A stretch of DNA of 64,000 nt from Natroniella sulfidigena. GTDB lineage: Bacteria; Bacillota; Halanaerobiia; Halobacteroidales; Halobacteroidaceae. Below the pieces are notes generated by a model. It had not been told where the DNA came from and did no database searches. It saw nothing but the letters and a program-made list of their open reading frames with translations. The stretch covers positions 1-64,000 of the forward strand of contig NZ_JALKBY010000013.1 in NCBI RefSeq assembly GCF_023223645.1. Direction: 5' to 3'. Positions within the stretch are counted from its first letter, which is position 1, and every line of letters begins with the position of its first letter. The position numbers and the translations under genes were made by a program. Of this stretch, positions 3,026 to 23,383 are shown one piece after another.

Positions 3026-3138
3026 CTCTCATCTTTCAACCCCAAATTGGAATTGCAGGATGTGGCACCATTACTCTGTAAAACAGAGTCGGTTGCCGGG
3101 CTTCATCGGGCCAGTCCCTCCACCTCTCTTGATAAGAG
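3026..3138 (-). promoter_or_regulatory. SAM-I (S-box) riboswitch
   Basis: On the minus strand the run reads, in order, CTCTTATCAAGAGAGGTGGA, GGGACTGGCCCGATGAAGCC, CGGCAACC, a variable hairpin (GACTCTG/CAGAGT), GGTGCCACATCCTGC and GATGAGAG. These are the conserved blocks of the S-box aptamer. P1 pairs CTCTTATC with GATGAGAG (one G-U), and the GATGA/kink-turn region and the GGCAACC strand are intact. It ends about 80 bases before the hom start with a terminator hairpin between them. In the S-box family, bound S-adenosylmethionine stabilises P1 and frees the terminator, turning transcription off. Confidence 0.96.
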
Positions 3139-16132: not shown

Positions 16133-16609
16133 TTACCAACCTCTCATCATTCCATGACCTCTACTTCTTCTCCCATCAAAAGAACTTCTAGTTCCATGAC
16201 AATCAAAACCAGTTCCATTCATTCTTTCTAACTGTTCAGCAGATAAGATGTCTCTTTTTGCTAACTGATACTCATCTTGTAAACTTCTTAGCTCTTCTCT
16301 TAAAATACTGATCTCATTTTGTAATTGGGCCAACTCATCTTGACTGGCATCTGACTGAGAATATAAATATCTTAAATCATCCCTTTTTCTCCGTAATTGA
16401 TCATTTAATTCCCTTGTTTGTTGGTAATACTCATCTTCTAAAGCTCTCATCTCTTCTAACTGCTCATTTGATAAATCTAAGTAATCATTATTATACTCAC
16501 TCTGAGACATCATATGCCCTCTCATTCCTGCTCTACCATACCCAAAAACTACAGATGACATTCCTAAGACTAATAACCCAACCAATACTAAACTAATAAT
16601 TCGCTTCAT
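16133..16609 (-). CDS. Spy/CpxP-like exported stress protein
   Basis: An N-terminal signal peptide (LVLVGLLVLGMSSVVFG) precedes a long charged coiled-coil body. LSNEQLEEMRALEDEYYQQT and ILSAEQLERM match the repeated L-[ST]-x-E-Q-x motif of the Spy/CpxP/ZraP (heavy-metal resistance) family. The tail is rich in Gly, Arg, His and Met (GRRSRGHGMMRGW), and with HMM near the N-terminus it could bind metal. Length 158 is typical. The gene has a strong AAGGAGGAGAT site. Its promoter carries three 11-base-spaced CTTAAT repeats, a layout of OmpR-family response regulators, which fits envelope-stress control of this family elsewhere. Confidence 0.82.
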   Translation of the reverse strand: MKRIISLVLVGLLVLGMSSVVFGYGRAGMRGHMMSQSEYNNDYLDLSNEQLEEMRALEDEYYQQTRELNDQLRRKRDDLRYLYSQSDASQDELAQLQNEISILREELRSLQDEYQLAKRDILSAEQLERMNGTGFDCHGTRSSFDGRRSRGHGMMRGW

Positions 16610-16711: not shown

Positions 16712-18406
16712 TTAGAAAGAATTAGCTACACTTAATAAACGTTTAGTATAGTAATGTTGAGGATAATTGATTACTCTGACTGCAGGGCCTTGTTCTACTA
16801 TCTCACCTTGATAGAGTACTACAATCCTATCACTAACCTTACGGGCCAACGCTAAATCATGAGTAACAAATAACATAGCCATCCCTCTTTCATTCTGTAA
16901 ATCTAGCAATAATTTTAAAACTTGAGCCTGCACACCAGGATCTAAAGCCGAAGTAGGTTCATCAGCAATCAAAACCTTAGGTTCTAAAATCAAAGCTCTA
17001 GCAATAGCTAATCTCTGTAACTCTCCTCCACTCAAACCAGTAATCTGACTAGCTAAAAATTCCTGATCAGAAGGTAAATAGACCTGCTTTAAAGCTTGCT
17101 TGGTCTTCTTTAGTTGTAGGTCTTTATCTTTAAACCCTTGAATCTGAAGTGGTTCAGCCAAAATTTCAAAAACCGTAAACTTCTTATTAAAAGAGCTAGC
17201 TGGATCCTGCCAGATCATCTGTACCTGACTATGAAATTCTAAGCGTTTCTTCTTCCACTCAGCTAAATTGCTCTCTTTAAAGATAATCTCTCCACTACTC
17301 TTTGGGATCAATCCTGCAATCATCTTAGCTAAGGTACTTTTTCCCGAACCACTCTCACCTACTACTGAAACTATTTCACCCTCTTTAATGCTCAAATTAA
17401 CATCATTTACTGCAGTAAAGTACTCTTTATTGAACAAACTTCCTTGGTAGTATTTCTTAGTTACATCTTGTAGAGTGACTAATTCAACAATCCCTTCACG
17501 ATGGCAAGCTAAGAAGCGTTGGCTAGACTCTACCCTTTCCAATTCAGGCGACCGTAAAGCACACAGATCAACTGATTGAGTACAACGATCATAAAAAGGA
17601 CAACCCTTATCACTATACCGCTTCCCACTTCCTCGACGTAACCCTTGTAACTCTTGAGTCCTCTGCATAGTAGGATAAGATCTAATCAAAGCTCTAGTAT
17701 AAGGATGAGCTGGACTTTTCAAAATCTGACTAGGCTCAGCAATCTCTACTATCTTTCCTTGATAAAGCACCACGATTTTATCCACCAATTCTTTAAGTAA
17801 AAAGAAGTCATGAGAAATAACCATAATGCTCTTTTCTGTGCTAATCTCTTTAATTAAGCTAGCTATCTTCTCTTTAGTCAAAAAATCTAAAGAAGCAGTA
17901 GGTTCATCAAAGATGATCAACTCAGGATCATTGACCAATGCCATAGCAATTAAAGCTCGAGCCTTTTCACCTCCACTGAGATTATTTGGATATAAATTCA
18001 TCTTCTCAACCGAAAGTCCAGTCCGCTTTAATAACTTCTCAGCACGCAGAAAGGCTTTGTTCTTTTTTATTCTTTCATGTTGGATCATAGGTTCAGCCAC
18101 CTGACTTAAGATCGTATAGCCTGGATTGAGCAAATTATCTAGATTCTGCATTACCATAGCTATCTCATTCCATCTAATTTCTTCCCAATCTTGCTGCTCA
18201 TTTTCTAACAAGTTCTGCCCTTTAAAGATGACCTCTCCTGATACTTCACCTTCTAACAATCCCATAATACTCAATCCTAAGGTAGTTTTGCCGGTACCAC
18301 TTTCACCAATAATACCTACTTTTTCTCCCTCTTCAATCTTTAAATTCATCTTCTTTAAAATCCTAGTATTCCCACACTCTACTTGTAAATTCTTTAGTTC
18401 CAGCAT
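16712..18406 (-). CDS. Peptide/nickel-type ABC importer, fused double ATPase
   Basis: Two ATP-binding cassettes in one chain, equivalent to DppD plus DppF. The first has Walker A GESGTGKTTLG, signature LSGGEKARALIAM and IIFDEPTASLDF. The second has GESGSGKSTLAKM, LSGGELQRLAIARAL and LIADEPTSALDPG. Between them lies the oligopeptide-importer C-terminal extension with Cys-rich CPFYDRC...C...C, which in some relatives carries a 4Fe-4S cluster. GAGGGGG is positioned for the ATG at 18406 rather than the in-frame ATG at 18421, so 18406 is taken. It is last in the binding protein-permease-permease-ATPase operon; fusion of the two ATPases is seen in other peptide and metal importers. Confidence 0.93.
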   Translation of the reverse strand: MLELKNLQVECGNTRILKKMNLKIEEGEKVGIIGESGTGKTTLGLSIMGLLEGEVSGEVIFKGQNLLENEQQDWEEIRWNEIAMVMQNLDNLLNPGYTILSQVAEPMIQHERIKKNKAFLRAEKLLKRTGLSVEKMNLYPNNLSGGEKARALIAMALVNDPELIIFDEPTASLDFLTKEKIASLIKEISTEKSIMVISHDFFLLKELVDKIVVLYQGKIVEIAEPSQILKSPAHPYTRALIRSYPTMQRTQELQGLRRGSGKRYSDKGCPFYDRCTQSVDLCALRSPELERVESSQRFLACHREGIVELVTLQDVTKKYYQGSLFNKEYFTAVNDVNLSIKEGEIVSVVGESGSGKSTLAKMIAGLIPKSSGEIIFKESNLAEWKKKRLEFHSQVQMIWQDPASSFNKKFTVFEILAEPLQIQGFKDKDLQLKKTKQALKQVYLPSDQEFLASQITGLSGGELQRLAIARALILEPKVLIADEPTSALDPGVQAQVLKLLLDLQNERGMAMLFVTHDLALARKVSDRIVVLYQGEIVEQGPAVRVINYPQHYYTKRLLSVANSF

Positions 18407-18423
18407 CTTTAGCCCCCTCATTA

Positions 18424-19209
18424 TCAGACTAATTCTTGAGAGTCCTTACCATACTCTACCAGCACAATCCCTAAAATAGTCAGAGTCAAAAGAATTGCTG
18501 GCGGAAGTATCCACCAACTCCAGCCCCCCAAATAAATATAATCTAAACCATGTCGAATCATCTTACCCCAGCTTATTAAGCTAGGATCTCCTACTCCTAA
18601 AAAAGATAATCCTGCTTCTAAAAATACAGCTCGCCGGAAGATAAGTAAAAATTGGACAGAAAGTAAAGGCAGTAACTGCGATAAGAGATGTTTTAAAGTA
18701 ATGTGTAATTTACCTGCTCCAAATCCTTGAACTGCTACAATAAAATTACTTTTCAAAAGAGAGTTAGTCTGATTACGAATTATCCGTGCTCCATACTGCC
18801 AAAACAATAATGACAATACCATAACCATCCCCCATAAAGAAACTCGAAAATAAGCAGCAATCAATATTATAATCAACACTGTAGGAAGTGCAATAAAACC
18901 ATCGATCAACCTCATCCAAAAAGTATCATAAATCCCCTTAAATAAAGCTGAAGTTACCCCAATTAAAAAGCTTAGGAAAGTAGATAGCAAAGCTGTAGAA
19001 AAACCAATCACTACTGAAGTTCTAGCCCCATACAACAAACGGCTGAAGATATCCTCACCTAGATCATTAGTACCTAACAACTGACTACTATTAGGGGCCA
19101 AAAAAGATTGTCCTACATATTCACTAGGCTGATAAGGAGCAATCAACGGAGCAAAAATAGCTAGCACTACAATCATCCCAACCAAAATCAAACCTACCTT
19201 CCGCATCAA
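18424..19209 (-). CDS. ABC importer permease, DppC/NikC type
   Basis: Membrane subunit of the peptide/nickel importer. About five to six hydrophobic helices are seen, with an N-terminal segment ending before APLIAPYQPSEYVG, and the BPD-transp-1 coupling loop VAVQGFGAGKLHITLKHLL (EAA-type). LGTNDLGEDIFSRLLYGART is the DppC signature. Length 261, slightly short for the family. The start overlaps the end of the preceding permease by 4 bases (ATGA-type coupling), and the ATPase gene follows at once. Confidence 0.92.
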   Translation of the reverse strand: MMRKVGLILVGMIVVLAIFAPLIAPYQPSEYVGQSFLAPNSSQLLGTNDLGEDIFSRLLYGARTSVVIGFSTALLSTFLSFLIGVTSALFKGIYDTFWMRLIDGFIALPTVLIIILIAAYFRVSLWGMVMVLSLLFWQYGARIIRNQTNSLLKSNFIVAVQGFGAGKLHITLKHLLSQLLPLLSVQFLLIFRRAVFLEAGLSFLGVGDPSLISWGKMIRHGLDYIYLGGWSWWILPPAILLTLTILGIVLVEYGKDSQELV

Positions 19210-20165
19210 TATCCCCCTTTATCTACTCTATCAATTACAAGACCTGTTACAAAGTTAACTAATAGAACAATCAAGCTTAACAACAAAAGTGAACCCTGTA
19301 GCAATGGATAGTCTCTATTCAATAATGCTTGATAGATTAGAGTCCCCATTCCAGGATAAGAAAAGATATTCTCAACAAATAATGCTCCTCCCAAAAATGT
19401 ACCAAATCTGATACCTACTTGGGTTATTAAAGGAATCATAGCATTTCGAGCTCCATGAACATACTTGATTCGTTCTTGCTTTAGACCTTTGGCCCTAGCC
19501 AATTGTATAAAAGGCTGCTCAATAACCCCAAACATAGAGTTACGCATCAACAGATAACTACTTGGTAATCTAGTTAAAACCAAAGTTATTAAGGGCAAAG
19601 CTAAATGATGTAAGATATCTACTAACCAGACTAGACCCGTATAGCTGGCATGCGAAGTCATAGCTCCACCAGTAGGAAAGATGCTCAACTGCCAACTGAA
19701 AATAATCAACAATAATGACCCCACTACAATCCCTGGCATCCCATTAATAATCAATAATATTAATAAGAGTAATCTATCCTTTCGTTGATTATACTCCCAG
19801 CCTGACTCGACCCCTAGTACAAATCCAAGTAGAGTAGATAAAATTAATGAAGTCAAGAGCAATAACAATGTCCAGGGCAAATAGTTCATAACTACTTGCA
19901 CAACCGATTCTTCATAATAAAAAGAGTAACCAAGATCTAAGTTTAGCACAGTATTACTTAAATAATTAAAGAATTGACCAACTAGAGGCTTAGATAAGCC
20001 ATATCTTTCTTCTAAAGCTATTCTTAACTCTGGAGTAAGTTCTGTTAACGCATCTCCATACATAGCAGTAATTGGATCACCAGGCATCAATCTTGGTAAA
20101 ATAAAATTTAATAATAGAATAATTATTAATGCAATTAAATAGCCCGATAGCCTCTTCTCTTTCAT
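19206..20165 (-). CDS. ABC importer permease, DppB/NikB type
   Basis: Membrane subunit of the same importer. NFILPRLMPGDPITAMYGD near the N-terminus and RLPSSYLLMRNSMFGVIEQ, ARAKGL, and VENIFSYPGMGTLIYQALLNRDYPL at the C-terminal end are DppB hallmarks. About six transmembrane helices in 319 residues, the family length. It starts directly after the stop of the binding-protein gene and overlaps the next permease by 4 bases. Confidence 0.93.
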   Translation of the reverse strand: MKEKRLSGYLIALIIILLLNFILPRLMPGDPITAMYGDALTELTPELRIALEERYGLSKPLVGQFFNYLSNTVLNLDLGYSFYYEESVVQVVMNYLPWTLLLLLTSLILSTLLGFVLGVESGWEYNQRKDRLLLLILLIINGMPGIVVGSLLLIIFSWQLSIFPTGGAMTSHASYTGLVWLVDILHHLALPLITLVLTRLPSSYLLMRNSMFGVIEQPFIQLARAKGLKQERIKYVHGARNAMIPLITQVGIRFGTFLGGALFVENIFSYPGMGTLIYQALLNRDYPLLQGSLLLLSLIVLLVNFVTGLVIDRVDKGGY

Positions 20166-21719
20166 CTAATCAAAATCCCTTTCAATTAATGCTAACTTAT
20201 TTAGTGGGTGAGGGATTCCTATAGCAATTCCTCCTGCAGTATAAAACCAGGGAATAGTGCCATCAGAAGCCCAATATTCTTCAGGATAATAGAGTGTTAT
20301 TGCTAGTAATTCTTCAGCATAAATACCTTGAATATCCTCTACAACCTCTAATCTTCTATCTTGCTCCATTATTGTTAATTGCTTTTCCAGTTGATCTATT
20401 AACTGTTGATTTTCTTTAAAGCGAACACTCTTAGGATCATCATCTAGAATCATCTGATTAAGAACCATCGGATCTCCTCCTAATCCTCCATGTCCACTAA
20501 TCGCTAAATCAAAATTCCAATTATCAATTTTAGTATCTAATGAAGCTTCGTCAAGCACTCTAATTTCAACTTCAATACCTACTTGTTTTAAATTCTGCTT
20601 AATAATCTCTGAAATTCTATCTTCCTGCGTTAGCAGAGTAAATTCCAGACTTTGATCACCTTTAGTATACACTCCATCTTCCTTACTATAGCCTAACTCT
20701 TCAATTAAATTTCTAGACTTTTGAGGATTATAATCATATTCAGGCAACTCTTTAGCTGCCCACTTACTATCAGGTGAAATTAAACCTTGACTACCTTCAA
20801 CTCCATAACCTCTTAGTCCCCTCTCCACTAACTCTTCACGATTGATTGCATGGGCCAACGCTTGTCTAAACTTTCGCTGATCGAAAGGTTCTTGATGCTG
20901 ATTAAACATCAACTTGTTGGCCCAAAAGTGATTACCAGTCATTAACTCAAAGCCGGCTTCTGCAAGACTCTCTACAGCTTCAGGCATTACCTCTACTATA
21001 TTCAGCTCACCACGCTGCAATTCAACTTCAGGACTATTAGTCTTGACAAAAATAAGTTCTTCAACAATTGGATCTCCCCCATAGTAATCCTCATTAGCCT
21101 GATAAAAATAACTTCCTTGAGTCCGGTTATACTCTGCAAGTTGATAAGGGCCAGTTCCAACAACAGCCTCTGTAGCAGTAAATTCCCTTGGCTTCTCTAT
21201 CTCAGCCCAGATATGTTCAGGCAAAATAGGCACCACTCCAGCCACCCGCTCTAAAAATGGAGCATAAGGCTGACTGAGATAGACTCTAACTTGATAGTCA
21301 TCTATTAATTCCACCTTTTCTACAGCATTTAAGTTGGCCCAGCCATAGGGGTTTTCTTGTAAATAATTAAAGGTAAAGACTACATCTTGGCCAGTAAATT
21401 CAGTACCATCATGCCAGTTCACATCACGACGCAGGTTAAAAGTAAAATAATTCTCTTCTTCCTCATAAGACCAATCCTCAGCCAAAGCAGAAACAAAACC
21501 ACTTTCATCTTTCCAGATCAAAGTATCAAAGATAAGGCTCATCCTTAAATAACCTGGCCCTCTAAGATAATGTCTGTGTGGTGTAGGATAACCCCAATCC
21601 CCCCTTTGATCGCCGATCTTTAATACCTCTACTTCTGCTTCTGAATTATTCGATAGGTTAAAAAAACCTATTCCAACTACTAAACTGAGCAATAAAATGA
21701 CTAATAAAAGCTTCTTCAC
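20166..21719 (-). CDS. ABC importer substrate-binding protein (family 5)
   Basis: Extracellular binding protein for the importer. After a hydrophobic signal (LLLVILLLSLVVGIGFF) the family-5 features appear: FNLRRDVNWHDGTEFTGQDV, VGTGPYQLAEYNRTQGSYF, and FDQRKFRQALAHAINREEL. There is no clear lipobox, so a non-lipidated or N-terminally anchored protein is likely. The start is taken as GTG at 21719, preceded by GGAGGGG, because the upstream ATG at 21737 has no suitable site. First gene of the four-gene operon. The family binds peptides, nickel complexes, heme or opines; the adjacent FmdE-fusion gene hints at a metal or cofactor cargo, but this is inference. Confidence 0.9.
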   Translation of the reverse strand: MKKLLLVILLLSLVVGIGFFNLSNNSEAEVEVLKIGDQRGDWGYPTPHRHYLRGPGYLRMSLIFDTLIWKDESGFVSALAEDWSYEEEENYFTFNLRRDVNWHDGTEFTGQDVVFTFNYLQENPYGWANLNAVEKVELIDDYQVRVYLSQPYAPFLERVAGVVPILPEHIWAEIEKPREFTATEAVVGTGPYQLAEYNRTQGSYFYQANEDYYGGDPIVEELIFVKTNSPEVELQRGELNIVEVMPEAVESLAEAGFELMTGNHFWANKLMFNQHQEPFDQRKFRQALAHAINREELVERGLRGYGVEGSQGLISPDSKWAAKELPEYDYNPQKSRNLIEELGYSKEDGVYTKGDQSLEFTLLTQEDRISEIIKQNLKQVGIEVEIRVLDEASLDTKIDNWNFDLAISGHGGLGGDPMVLNQMILDDDPKSVRFKENQQLIDQLEKQLTIMEQDRRLEVVEDIQGIYAEELLAITLYYPEEYWASDGTIPWFYTAGGIAIGIPHPLNKLALIERDFD

Positions 21720-21754
21720 TGCTACCCCTCCTTCCATTACCTTTTAATTGATAT

Positions 21755-21853
21755 ATTGTGTCAGTGTGAGTGGTATGTGTGAGTAAAAGCAAAACCTTAG
21801 CCCTTATGATCTTGACCTCACCCACACTCACACACATAACTGACACATAATTG
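21755..21853. repeat. Heptamer-built inverted repeat, copy 2
   Basis: Left arm TGTCAGT GTGAGTG GTATGTG TGAG; right arm CTCACCC ACACTCA CACACAT AACTGAC ACA, which is the left arm inverted with its units in another order. The core contains AAAACCTTAGCCCTTATGATC, comparable to the core of the copy at 6105. It lies between the TrmO-FmdE fusion gene and the binding-protein gene. Confidence 0.75.
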
Positions 21854-21881
21854 TAATACCGCTTCACTTCAACACCGCTGC

Positions 21882-22976
21882 TTATTTAATTAAATTCAAA
21901 CCACGCCCATCAAGCTGTAAATAGCTCTCACCTGCACAGCTAATACAGTAGTCACCATCTTCTTTACTTACTGCCTTTGGCCCCATAATCTTTTCACCAC
22001 ATTCAGCACAAAACTTATTTTCAAAGATCGGAGCATACTCAGGAAGCTCTACTTCCAAATCCTCTTCAATATGAAATAGCTCTTCTACTGGCTGATCAAT
22101 CATCTCAAAAGCAATCTCATTCCACAGTTGATTCAACTTCTCTTTATCCTCAGCAGTTCCTGCCCTATTTACTACTACCTTCTCAAAAAGCTTTTTAGCT
22201 TCAGGATAAGACTTATCAAGAAAACCTACCTCATCTTTAAAACGCAACCGAATTCCTCGTCCCTCACGAGTAGTTATAGTCACAGCAGTCTTTCCATAAT
22301 CCTTATAGATCAAAGCATTATTCCCAAATGAACAACCTGTAGCATACTGCACCCCATCACTGAAACAACTATTTGTCTCTATAATTGCTACTACTTCTTC
22401 CATCCCATCGGATTGAATACCAAGCCTATCTAAAGCATAAATTCCTGCTTTAACCCCTAAACTTACAAAAGGACAGAAATGACCATGTAGCTCACCCGCT
22501 TTGATCAAAATACCTTCAATATCTTTTTTCTTAATCATCTGCTCAATCTCTGCCCGTGGATTTTCTTTTAACTCTACTTTATTAACTACAGCCGGATGAT
22601 CCATGACAGCAGCATACGGTTTAAGATCGATGATTGGAGTTCCATCTATAGCATCCAATCCTTTCACCCTCAGCTTTCTACCATTTCTCTCTAATAATTC
22701 CACAGTAGTAATCGCTATTGGAGATGGTCTTCTAGGACTTCTACTAGCAAAGACCCCCTTAACCCCACCATAACGCCTTTCACCTTTGAGTTGATACCCT
22801 TCAGCAAGATGGAGGTTGAAGATAACCTGCAAATAATCACTCTCTTCAATCCGATAAAGCCCTTCTTCATATTCAGCCTTAACCTCTATTATACTTTCAT
22901 GCTTCCTCATCTCTTCTGGGCCAACTGGTTCTTTAAATTTACTCTTAACTACTCCAATACTCTCAACTTCAACCAT
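21882..22976 (-). CDS. Fusion of TrmO-like (TsaA) tRNA methyltransferase domain and FmdE domain with zinc finger
   Basis: Residues 1-125 or so form a TsaA/TrmO beta-barrel (IGVVKSKFKEPVGPEEM, GGVKGVFASRSPRRPSPIAI, GLDAIDGTPIIDLKPYA), the family that N6-methylates t6A37 in tRNA. About residues 135-280 form an FmdE domain (GELHGHFCPFVSLGVKAG, ETNSCFSDGVQYATGCSFGN) named after a subunit linked to the molybdenum/tungsten formylmethanofuran dehydrogenase. The C-terminus has a CxxC...CxxC zinc finger. FmdE proteins occur in bacteria beside ABC importers and are thought to bind metal or pterin cofactors. AAGGAG is spaced for ATG at 22976, not 23024. It is upstream of the ABC operon on the same strand, separated by a repeat element. 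Confidence 0.88.
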   Translation of the reverse strand: MVEVESIGVVKSKFKEPVGPEEMRKHESIIEVKAEYEEGLYRIEESDYLQVIFNLHLAEGYQLKGERRYGGVKGVFASRSPRRPSPIAITTVELLERNGRKLRVKGLDAIDGTPIIDLKPYAAVMDHPAVVNKVELKENPRAEIEQMIKKKDIEGILIKAGELHGHFCPFVSLGVKAGIYALDRLGIQSDGMEEVVAIIETNSCFSDGVQYATGCSFGNNALIYKDYGKTAVTITTREGRGIRLRFKDEVGFLDKSYPEAKKLFEKVVVNRAGTAEDKEKLNQLWNEIAFEMIDQPVEELFHIEEDLEVELPEYAPIFENKFCAECGEKIMGPKAVSKEDGDYCISCAGESYLQLDGRGLNLIK

Positions 22977-23383
22977 TAATATCACTCCTTTAATTATGAT
23001 TAGATACTCACCATTGTCTGCCAATCAAACTCAGACCCCATCCCTTTAACTAAGGAAAACCTATTTTTATACCAGCATTTGATATATCCAAGGGGTTAGG
23101 GAGGGGGTCTGAATTTTAATATTCCCCCTTGGGAGTCTGGCTTTACCACCAAATTATTTTCACCATCACTATCGAAACCATCTTCGTAACACCATTTAAT
23201 AAATTGTAGCACTTTGTTATTCTTTATTCTCTAACAAATTATTCATTCCTGCATAAATTAAAAATTTTCTGTTAAATTATTGGAAAGCTACTCTTAGAAT
23301 GACTTTTAACCAATTGAACTCATAGATAGCTGTATAAAAATTAAATTTATTCAAAGACTAAACTATAAAAGAAGGAGATTCAA
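22977..23383. other. 407-base divergent spacer
   Basis: Holds the candidate leader above (23031-23140) on the minus strand. The rest, up to the cupin gene on the plus strand, is A/T-rich with no clear gene. Confidence 0.55.
23031..23140 (-). promoter_or_regulatory. Candidate structured leader RNA of the TrmO-FmdE gene
   Basis: A G/C-rich inverted repeat of 15 of 16 bases (TCAGACCCCATCCCT at 23031-23045 and its near-complement ending GGGGTCTGA at 23112) brackets about 45 bases, 55 bases upstream of the start codon. The distal arm can instead pair as AGGGGG (23102-23107) with CCCCCT (23124-23129), giving two mutually exclusive hairpins. A third GTCTGG copy follows at 23135. It matches no riboswitch class I know; Moco and tungsten-cofactor RNA motifs were considered and not seen. 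Confidence 0.45.

Follow-up and report, generated by a model that had tools for sequence, protein, structure and literature searches.

What does a domain of the tRNA-methyltransferase family TrmO do in the same polypeptide as an FmdE domain and a zinc finger, in a gene placed directly ahead of an ABC importer of the peptide/nickel type? This arrangement lies in the window analysed here, a 64,000-nucleotide stretch of the Natroniella sulfidigena genome. A sequence-only reading had taken it as a sign of uptake and use of a metal or metal-cofactor complex, not of ordinary peptides. Our analysis supports that part of the reading through a NikR-type site shared with NikKLMQO-like genes of the same genome, through NikR and LarBCE genes beside the fusion in relatives, and through two conserved histidines in the binding protein. 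On the grounds of regulation and context, the metal is most likely nickel. We consider it probable that the fusion acts in the cytoplasm as an accessory to nickel uptake, is produced jointly with an importer of the NikA/Opp family, and is repressed by NikR under nickel-replete conditions.

Architecture of the fusion and its operon

The features of the locus are collected in the table below; AAAGGAGTG lies 5' of the ATG of the fusion gene. A TTG at 23024, listed as an alternative start, is less likely to be used, because the fusions of relatives align from the ATG. Pfam confirms the three domains that had been read from the sequence and that are conserved in relatives: TrmO_N at residues 17-126 (1e-26; 93.7 bits against a cut-off of 26.8), FmdE (PF02663; 3e-38; 131.3 bits against 22.9), and zf-dskA_traR, which at 2e-5 sits at the Pfam cut-off. 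The finger's four cysteines (323, 326, 344, and 347) are invariant across 12 aligned fusions. A search of 121 related genomes returned 13 further full-length fusions in one frame, which excludes an assembly artefact, together with one broken copy. In the N. sulfidigena genome, the fusion is both the sole TrmO_N match and the sole FmdE match. An AlphaFold model built from the 12 fusions is weak (pLDDT 61, pTM 0.46) and inadequate for site geometry; a fold search with it led to AF0241 and to FmdE structures.

Features of the fusion locus (window positions)
Feature	Positions	Strand	Remarks
TrmO-like / FmdE / zinc-finger fusion	21882..22976	-	ATG start; 364 aa; ORF and Pfam
TrmO-like AdoMet-binding beta-barrel domain	22593..22976	-	residues 1-128
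FmdE domain with H164-x-H166-x-C168 and C204	22074..22490	-	residues 163-301
C4 zinc finger	21921..22025	-	residues 318-352
Candidate NikR-type operator GTGCTAC-N13-GTGTTAC (direct orientation)	23186..23212	-	236 bp upstream of ATG
Leader block shared with the closest relative	23223..23257	-	35 bp at 89% identity; immediately 5' of operator
Dispersed repeat that forms a long hairpin in the gap after the fusion	21758..21857	.	not part of the system
Family-5 solute-binding protein (SBP_bac_5) with H56 and H416	20166..21737	-	Pfam
Permease, NikB/OppB type (BPD_transp_1)	19206..20165	-	Pfam/NCBIfam
Permease, NikC/OppC type (BPD_transp_1)	18424..19209	-	Pfam/NCBIfam
Single-chain ATPase, two ABC domains resembling NikD and NikE	16712..18421	-	Pfam/NCBIfam

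The FmdE domain carries its presumptive metal site intact: H164, H166, C168, and C204 are invariant in the 12 aligned fusions and correspond to the four ligands in the FmdE structure B8FYU2, where the site holds mixed Zn/Ni (PMC2954224), although the nickel in that crystal may be a trace from purification. With the solved FmdE proteins (B8FYU2_DESHY, 2glz; Q9HJ63_THEAC, 2gvi; Q2LQ23_SYNAS, 3d00; PMC2954224) the fusion shares the core fold, the HxHxC...C site, a C-terminal treble-clef zinc finger, and metal-ion transporters as neighbours. It differs from them in that its FmdE domain is joined to an AdoMet-binding barrel and tied to a NikR-type regulon and to LarBCE. The same study noted in 2010 that most FmdE genes adjoin metal-ion transporters and lie outside fmd operons, and already listed an FmdE-UPF0066 architecture (NTD-UPF0066).

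The importer follows on the same strand, as had been proposed, and Pfam recognizes its binding protein, a pair of permeases, and an ATPase that carries two ABC domains. A family-5 binding protein, NikB/C-type permeases, and NikD/E-type ATPase halves are common to this operon and the NikABCDE, Opp, and Cnt importers. In contrast to these, the ATPases are fused, the bit scores fall short of the NCBIfam equivalog cut-offs for NikA (137.8/393), NikB (171.5/447), and NikC (144.1/358), and the binding protein has H56 and H416 in place of the Trp of peptide binders. For the binding protein and the permeases, no NCBIfam nickel or peptide model that could decide the ligand scores above its cut-off. The ATPase scores above the NikD and NikE cut-offs, which says little, because it also passes the cut-off of an unrelated ATPase model. 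H56 occurs in each of the nine importers linked to the system and is missing from six other family-5 proteins, while H416 is kept in eight of the nine and replaced in the six others by Trp, as in DppA.

Between the fusion and the binding-protein gene lie 144 bp, compared with 22 bp in the closest relative, and most of this gap is the dispersed repeat. Its inverted repeat resembles an attenuator (z -3.3), a reading that we rejected, since a second copy is present elsewhere in the genome (G000:C3:24632-24731, 91% over 100 bp). Directly past the importer, on the same strand, a Metal_resist (CpxP-like) protein is encoded at 16133-16609.

A NikR-type site and the genomic context

NikR sites of a delta-proteobacterial regulon have been described as GTGTTAC half-sites in inverted or everted orientation, separated by N13/14, ahead of nikMQO, nikK, and related genes (PMC545781). 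The candidate operator of the fusion matches two such half-sites, 13 bp apart, with one mismatch, in direct and not inverted orientation. Allowing at most one mismatch, GTGTTAC-N13-GTGTTAC has a single match in the 2.6-Mb genome, upstream of the fusion operon. At two mismatches, matches lie beside nikR (C3:32182 and C3:32286) and ahead of nickel/cobalt transport genes, namely an operon with DUF4198, NikL, CbiM, and CbiQ (C3:36347) and, at a distance of 45 bp, a second CbiM gene (C3:68537); the operator pattern gave 12 matches and a control pattern two. NikR itself is encoded at G000:C3:31198-31425 (106.6 bits; RHH and NikR_C). The inverted or everted NikR pattern, scanned in its everted form, has no match in the window.

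The pattern recurs in relatives. In the closest one, a perfect copy lies 59 bp upstream of the fusion, and across 14 genomes five of the seven matches with at most one mismatch fall in nickel loci. In five loci from relatives of the same class, an everted, palindromic GTAACAC-N13-GTGTTAC directly precedes nikR. Half-site, spacing, and NikKLMQO targets are common to this genome and the delta-proteobacterial regulon, whereas the delta-proteobacterial GTGTTAC-N13/14-GTAACAC is replaced here by a direct repeat and the TrmO-FmdE/Opp operon is a member. We infer that the direct arrangement is a variant site to which NikR would bind. Its distance from the ATG reflects about 165 bp of additional sequence in the leader (22977-23186) relative to the closest relative, an apparent insertion that can fold into a strong hairpin. 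The conserved block at 23223-23257 is likely the promoter region.

The genes around the fusion in related genomes point in the same direction. The closest relative carries the fusion together with the same importer (73-80% identity), and in six other relatives the fusion is the final gene after a FecBCD importer. One of these six loci (L116) reads radical SAM, LarE, LarB, LarC1, LarC2, NikR, FecBCD, fusion; NikR and Lar markers occur at four more of them (L115, L117, L119, and L126), and at another fusion locus (L121) NikR and Lar genes are present and the upstream importer is absent. Fusions without importers, which the sequence-only reading had named as evidence against itself, do occur: for six of the 15, all from one genus, the roughly 9 kb examined contain no importer, and these orphans lack a GTGTTAC pair within 400 bp. 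The other nine, however, adjoin importers or NikR/Lar genes, so the six do not overturn the metal reading. In two of three checked genomes with importer-less fusions, nikR is found elsewhere with FecCD beside it. A genome of the same genus as the window genome (L153, 9153-12593) contains two FmdE genes, a 128-aa binding-protein fragment, an OppB fragment, and a perfect GTAACAC-N13-GTGTTAC site, and this looks like a decaying copy of the importer locus. The fusion is absent from five of the seven other family members and from many further relatives.

Unfused forms keep similar company. Separate FmdE-zinc-finger and TrmO genes stand together behind the same type of importer in two loci (L127, L128), an FmdE-zinc-finger gene precedes such an importer in two more (L129, L130), and an archaeon has FecBCD, FmdE, and TrmO in succession. 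Of 30 standalone FmdE genes, 16 lie at most five genes away from one for an importer, Cbi, or NikR. Neighbours of short TrmO-like genes include Opp-type importers (L137, L141, L145), LarEBC (L142, L148), and CbiM/CbiQ (L136); some TrmO-like genes adjoin cobalt/B12 or molybdate-type genes. Nickel/cobalt markers adjoin 6/13 close standalone TrmO-like genes compared with 3/68 genes of a reference set consisting mostly of ordinary TrmO from a genome-contig search (Fisher p = 3e-4), in counts that are drawn from related genomes and therefore overstate independence. Among random genes from 18 arbitrarily placed 20-kb stretches, none of 347 lies beside such markers.

Several individual loci were recorded in passing. 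A Heimdallarchaeota MAG (L060, 9554-10879) encodes a 441-aa LarC (Ni_insertion) with TrmO_N inserted at 165-281, an anecdote given that it was seen in one of 56 genomes searched. In Clostridium tetanomorphum (L201, 7344-11027), a 1228-aa protein in which TrmO_N precedes a UvrA-like ABC ATPase that includes the UvrA DNA-binding domain adjoins a FecBCD-type importer. A Methanomicrobiales MAG (L199, 8362-10465) has a TrmO-like gene between the binding protein and the permease of a molybdate/tungstate-type importer, a Thermoplasmatota MAG (L203, 6610-9690) has one adjoining a heavy-metal P-type ATPase, and a Syntrophomonas MAG (L204, 7049-11862) has an NMT1-type ABC importer, TrmO-like, FmdE, and QRPTase (ModD-like) genes in a row.

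The barrel and alternative readings

The best structural and sequence match to the barrel is TrmO/YaeB (UPF0066), and especially AF0241 (2nv4), the closest solved structure, which contains AdoMet. R79, D108, and K119 of the barrel match the AF0241 AdoMet contacts R82, D111, and K122, and alanine mutants of the matching Arg, Asp, and Lys in E. coli TrmO lose activity or have it lowered (PMC4132733). There are also differences. AF0241 Q22 aligns with E22 of the barrel, and most clade members have Glu or Lys there, in a part of the alignment that is unsure. The Asn of the RPNP motif, found in 8/8 DPRxxY proteins and 77/80 other TrmO, is Ser85 in the barrel, and the C-terminal DPRxxY domain, which E. 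coli TrmO needs (PMC4132733), is missing in every fused or close standalone form. In the tree, the barrel groups with short TrmO-like proteins from nickel loci (27 rows, 96% SH-aLRT) and not with DPRxxY TrmO; the alignment has few columns, and only the starred forks are trustworthy. Fused and unfused forms interleave in this tree, which implies repeated fusion or fission, or an old fusion that was later lost. Given the missing DPRxxY domain, the Asn-to-Ser change, and the grouping with short nickel-locus forms, it is improbable that the barrel works as a tRNA enzyme.

These observations bear directly on the alternative that the barrel functions as a genuine TrmO, N6-methylating t6A37 in tRNA-Thr, with an incidental or regulatory link to nickel. 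It passes the curated TIGR00104 TrmO cut-off (104.6 bits against 93.25), is the only TrmO_N in its genome, and keeps the AdoMet-site residues; yet this reading is very unlikely in view of the features just described, of the second, more distant TrmO in several relatives, and of the patchy occurrence noted above. Somewhat less improbable, if still unlikely, is a metal-sensing regulator of the importer without enzymatic activity, in which FmdE would sense the metal, the finger would contact DNA, RNA, or the ATPase, and the barrel would read AdoMet. A finger and a metal site within one protein, a neighbourhood that stays steady across three importer types, and the regulatory role suggested for FmdE-zinc-finger proteins (PMC2954224) would all suit it, but NikR already fills that role in most of these genomes, and short TrmO-like proteins keep the nickel context without FmdE or a finger. 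The AdoMet pocket, and the presence of opine and metallophore importers in the same importer family, could instead mean that the barrel converts AdoMet into a small nickel-binding molecule, which the importer then retrieves. This we regard as highly unlikely, as the operon contains neither an exporter nor a second biosynthetic gene, and TrmO-like genes also accompany free-ion importers and Lar genes, where a chelator would not be needed.

The metal, too, could be another one. Cobalt or a corrinoid is rather unlikely, despite a cobalamin riboswitch upstream of one FecBCD-fusion operon (L114), CbiMNQO beside FmdE in two loci (L129, L132), and CobA/BtuR near a short TrmO-like gene (L138): the operator shared within the window genome belongs to the NikR type and recurs beside nikR and NikKL-like genes, LarBCE and NikR are present in other relatives, and Rfam finds no cobalamin riboswitch in the window. 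Nor does Rfam place any riboswitch near the fusion operon; a SAM riboswitch lies at 3026-3138 on the minus strand. For the link to molybdenum, tungsten, or a pterin cofactor that the sequence-only reading had also raised, we found no support. FmdE is named after formylmethanofuran dehydrogenase, and one archaeal operon for a molybdate-type importer includes a TrmO-like gene, but with most FmdE genes outside fmd operons and no Mo riboswitch or Mo gene adjoining the operon, uptake of these substrates is extremely unlikely.

Proposed role and implications

For the nickel-uptake accessory role that we favour, the domains, ligand residues, operon, shared operator, and conserved nickel-locus context can be read directly from the sequences. 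From these we infer nickel binding, repression by NikR, and any catalysis with its substrate. Several points weigh against this role: the operator is a direct repeat 236 bp from the start codon, one relative has the cobalamin riboswitch, some TrmO-like genes keep cobalt/B12 or molybdate-type company, and six fusions stand without an importer. The importer would bring in nickel, probably chelated, and the HxHxC...C site of FmdE would take the metal after import, with the zinc finger holding a dimer or a partner. The AdoMet-binding barrel might then carry out methyl transfer, or another AdoMet-dependent step, on the ligand of nickel or on a partner protein. Nickel would thereby be freed for enzymes such as CO dehydrogenase; the genome encodes four members of the Prismane family (PF03063), to which CODH and hybrid-cluster protein belong. 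A broader proposal, which we put forward tentatively, is that the DPRxxY-less TrmO-like proteins (archaeal-type YaeB), at least in this clade, are AdoMet-dependent enzymes of transition-metal uptake and not tRNA enzymes, and work with FmdE on imported nickel or cobalt, the fusion being their one-polypeptide form.

The placement of FmdE beside metal transporters and the architecture itself were already known in 2010. This analysis adds the nickel regulon, the setting among Lar and NikR genes, and a link to nickel that the TrmO-like domain has independently; our search of the open-licence literature found no paper linking TrmO/TsaA to nickel. The results suggest that labels of tRNA-modifying enzymes may, in some lineages, cover proteins of nickel uptake or handling. 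If the nickel role is true, many tRNA methyltransferase labels in databases would be wrong, with the fusion itself scoring above a curated TrmO cut-off; the function of DPRxxY-less YaeB proteins would become directly testable; and FmdE, so far known just as a neighbour of metal transporters, could be assigned both a metal and a partner. Nickel uptake that includes an AdoMet-dependent step would, if true, be new chemistry in metal homeostasis.
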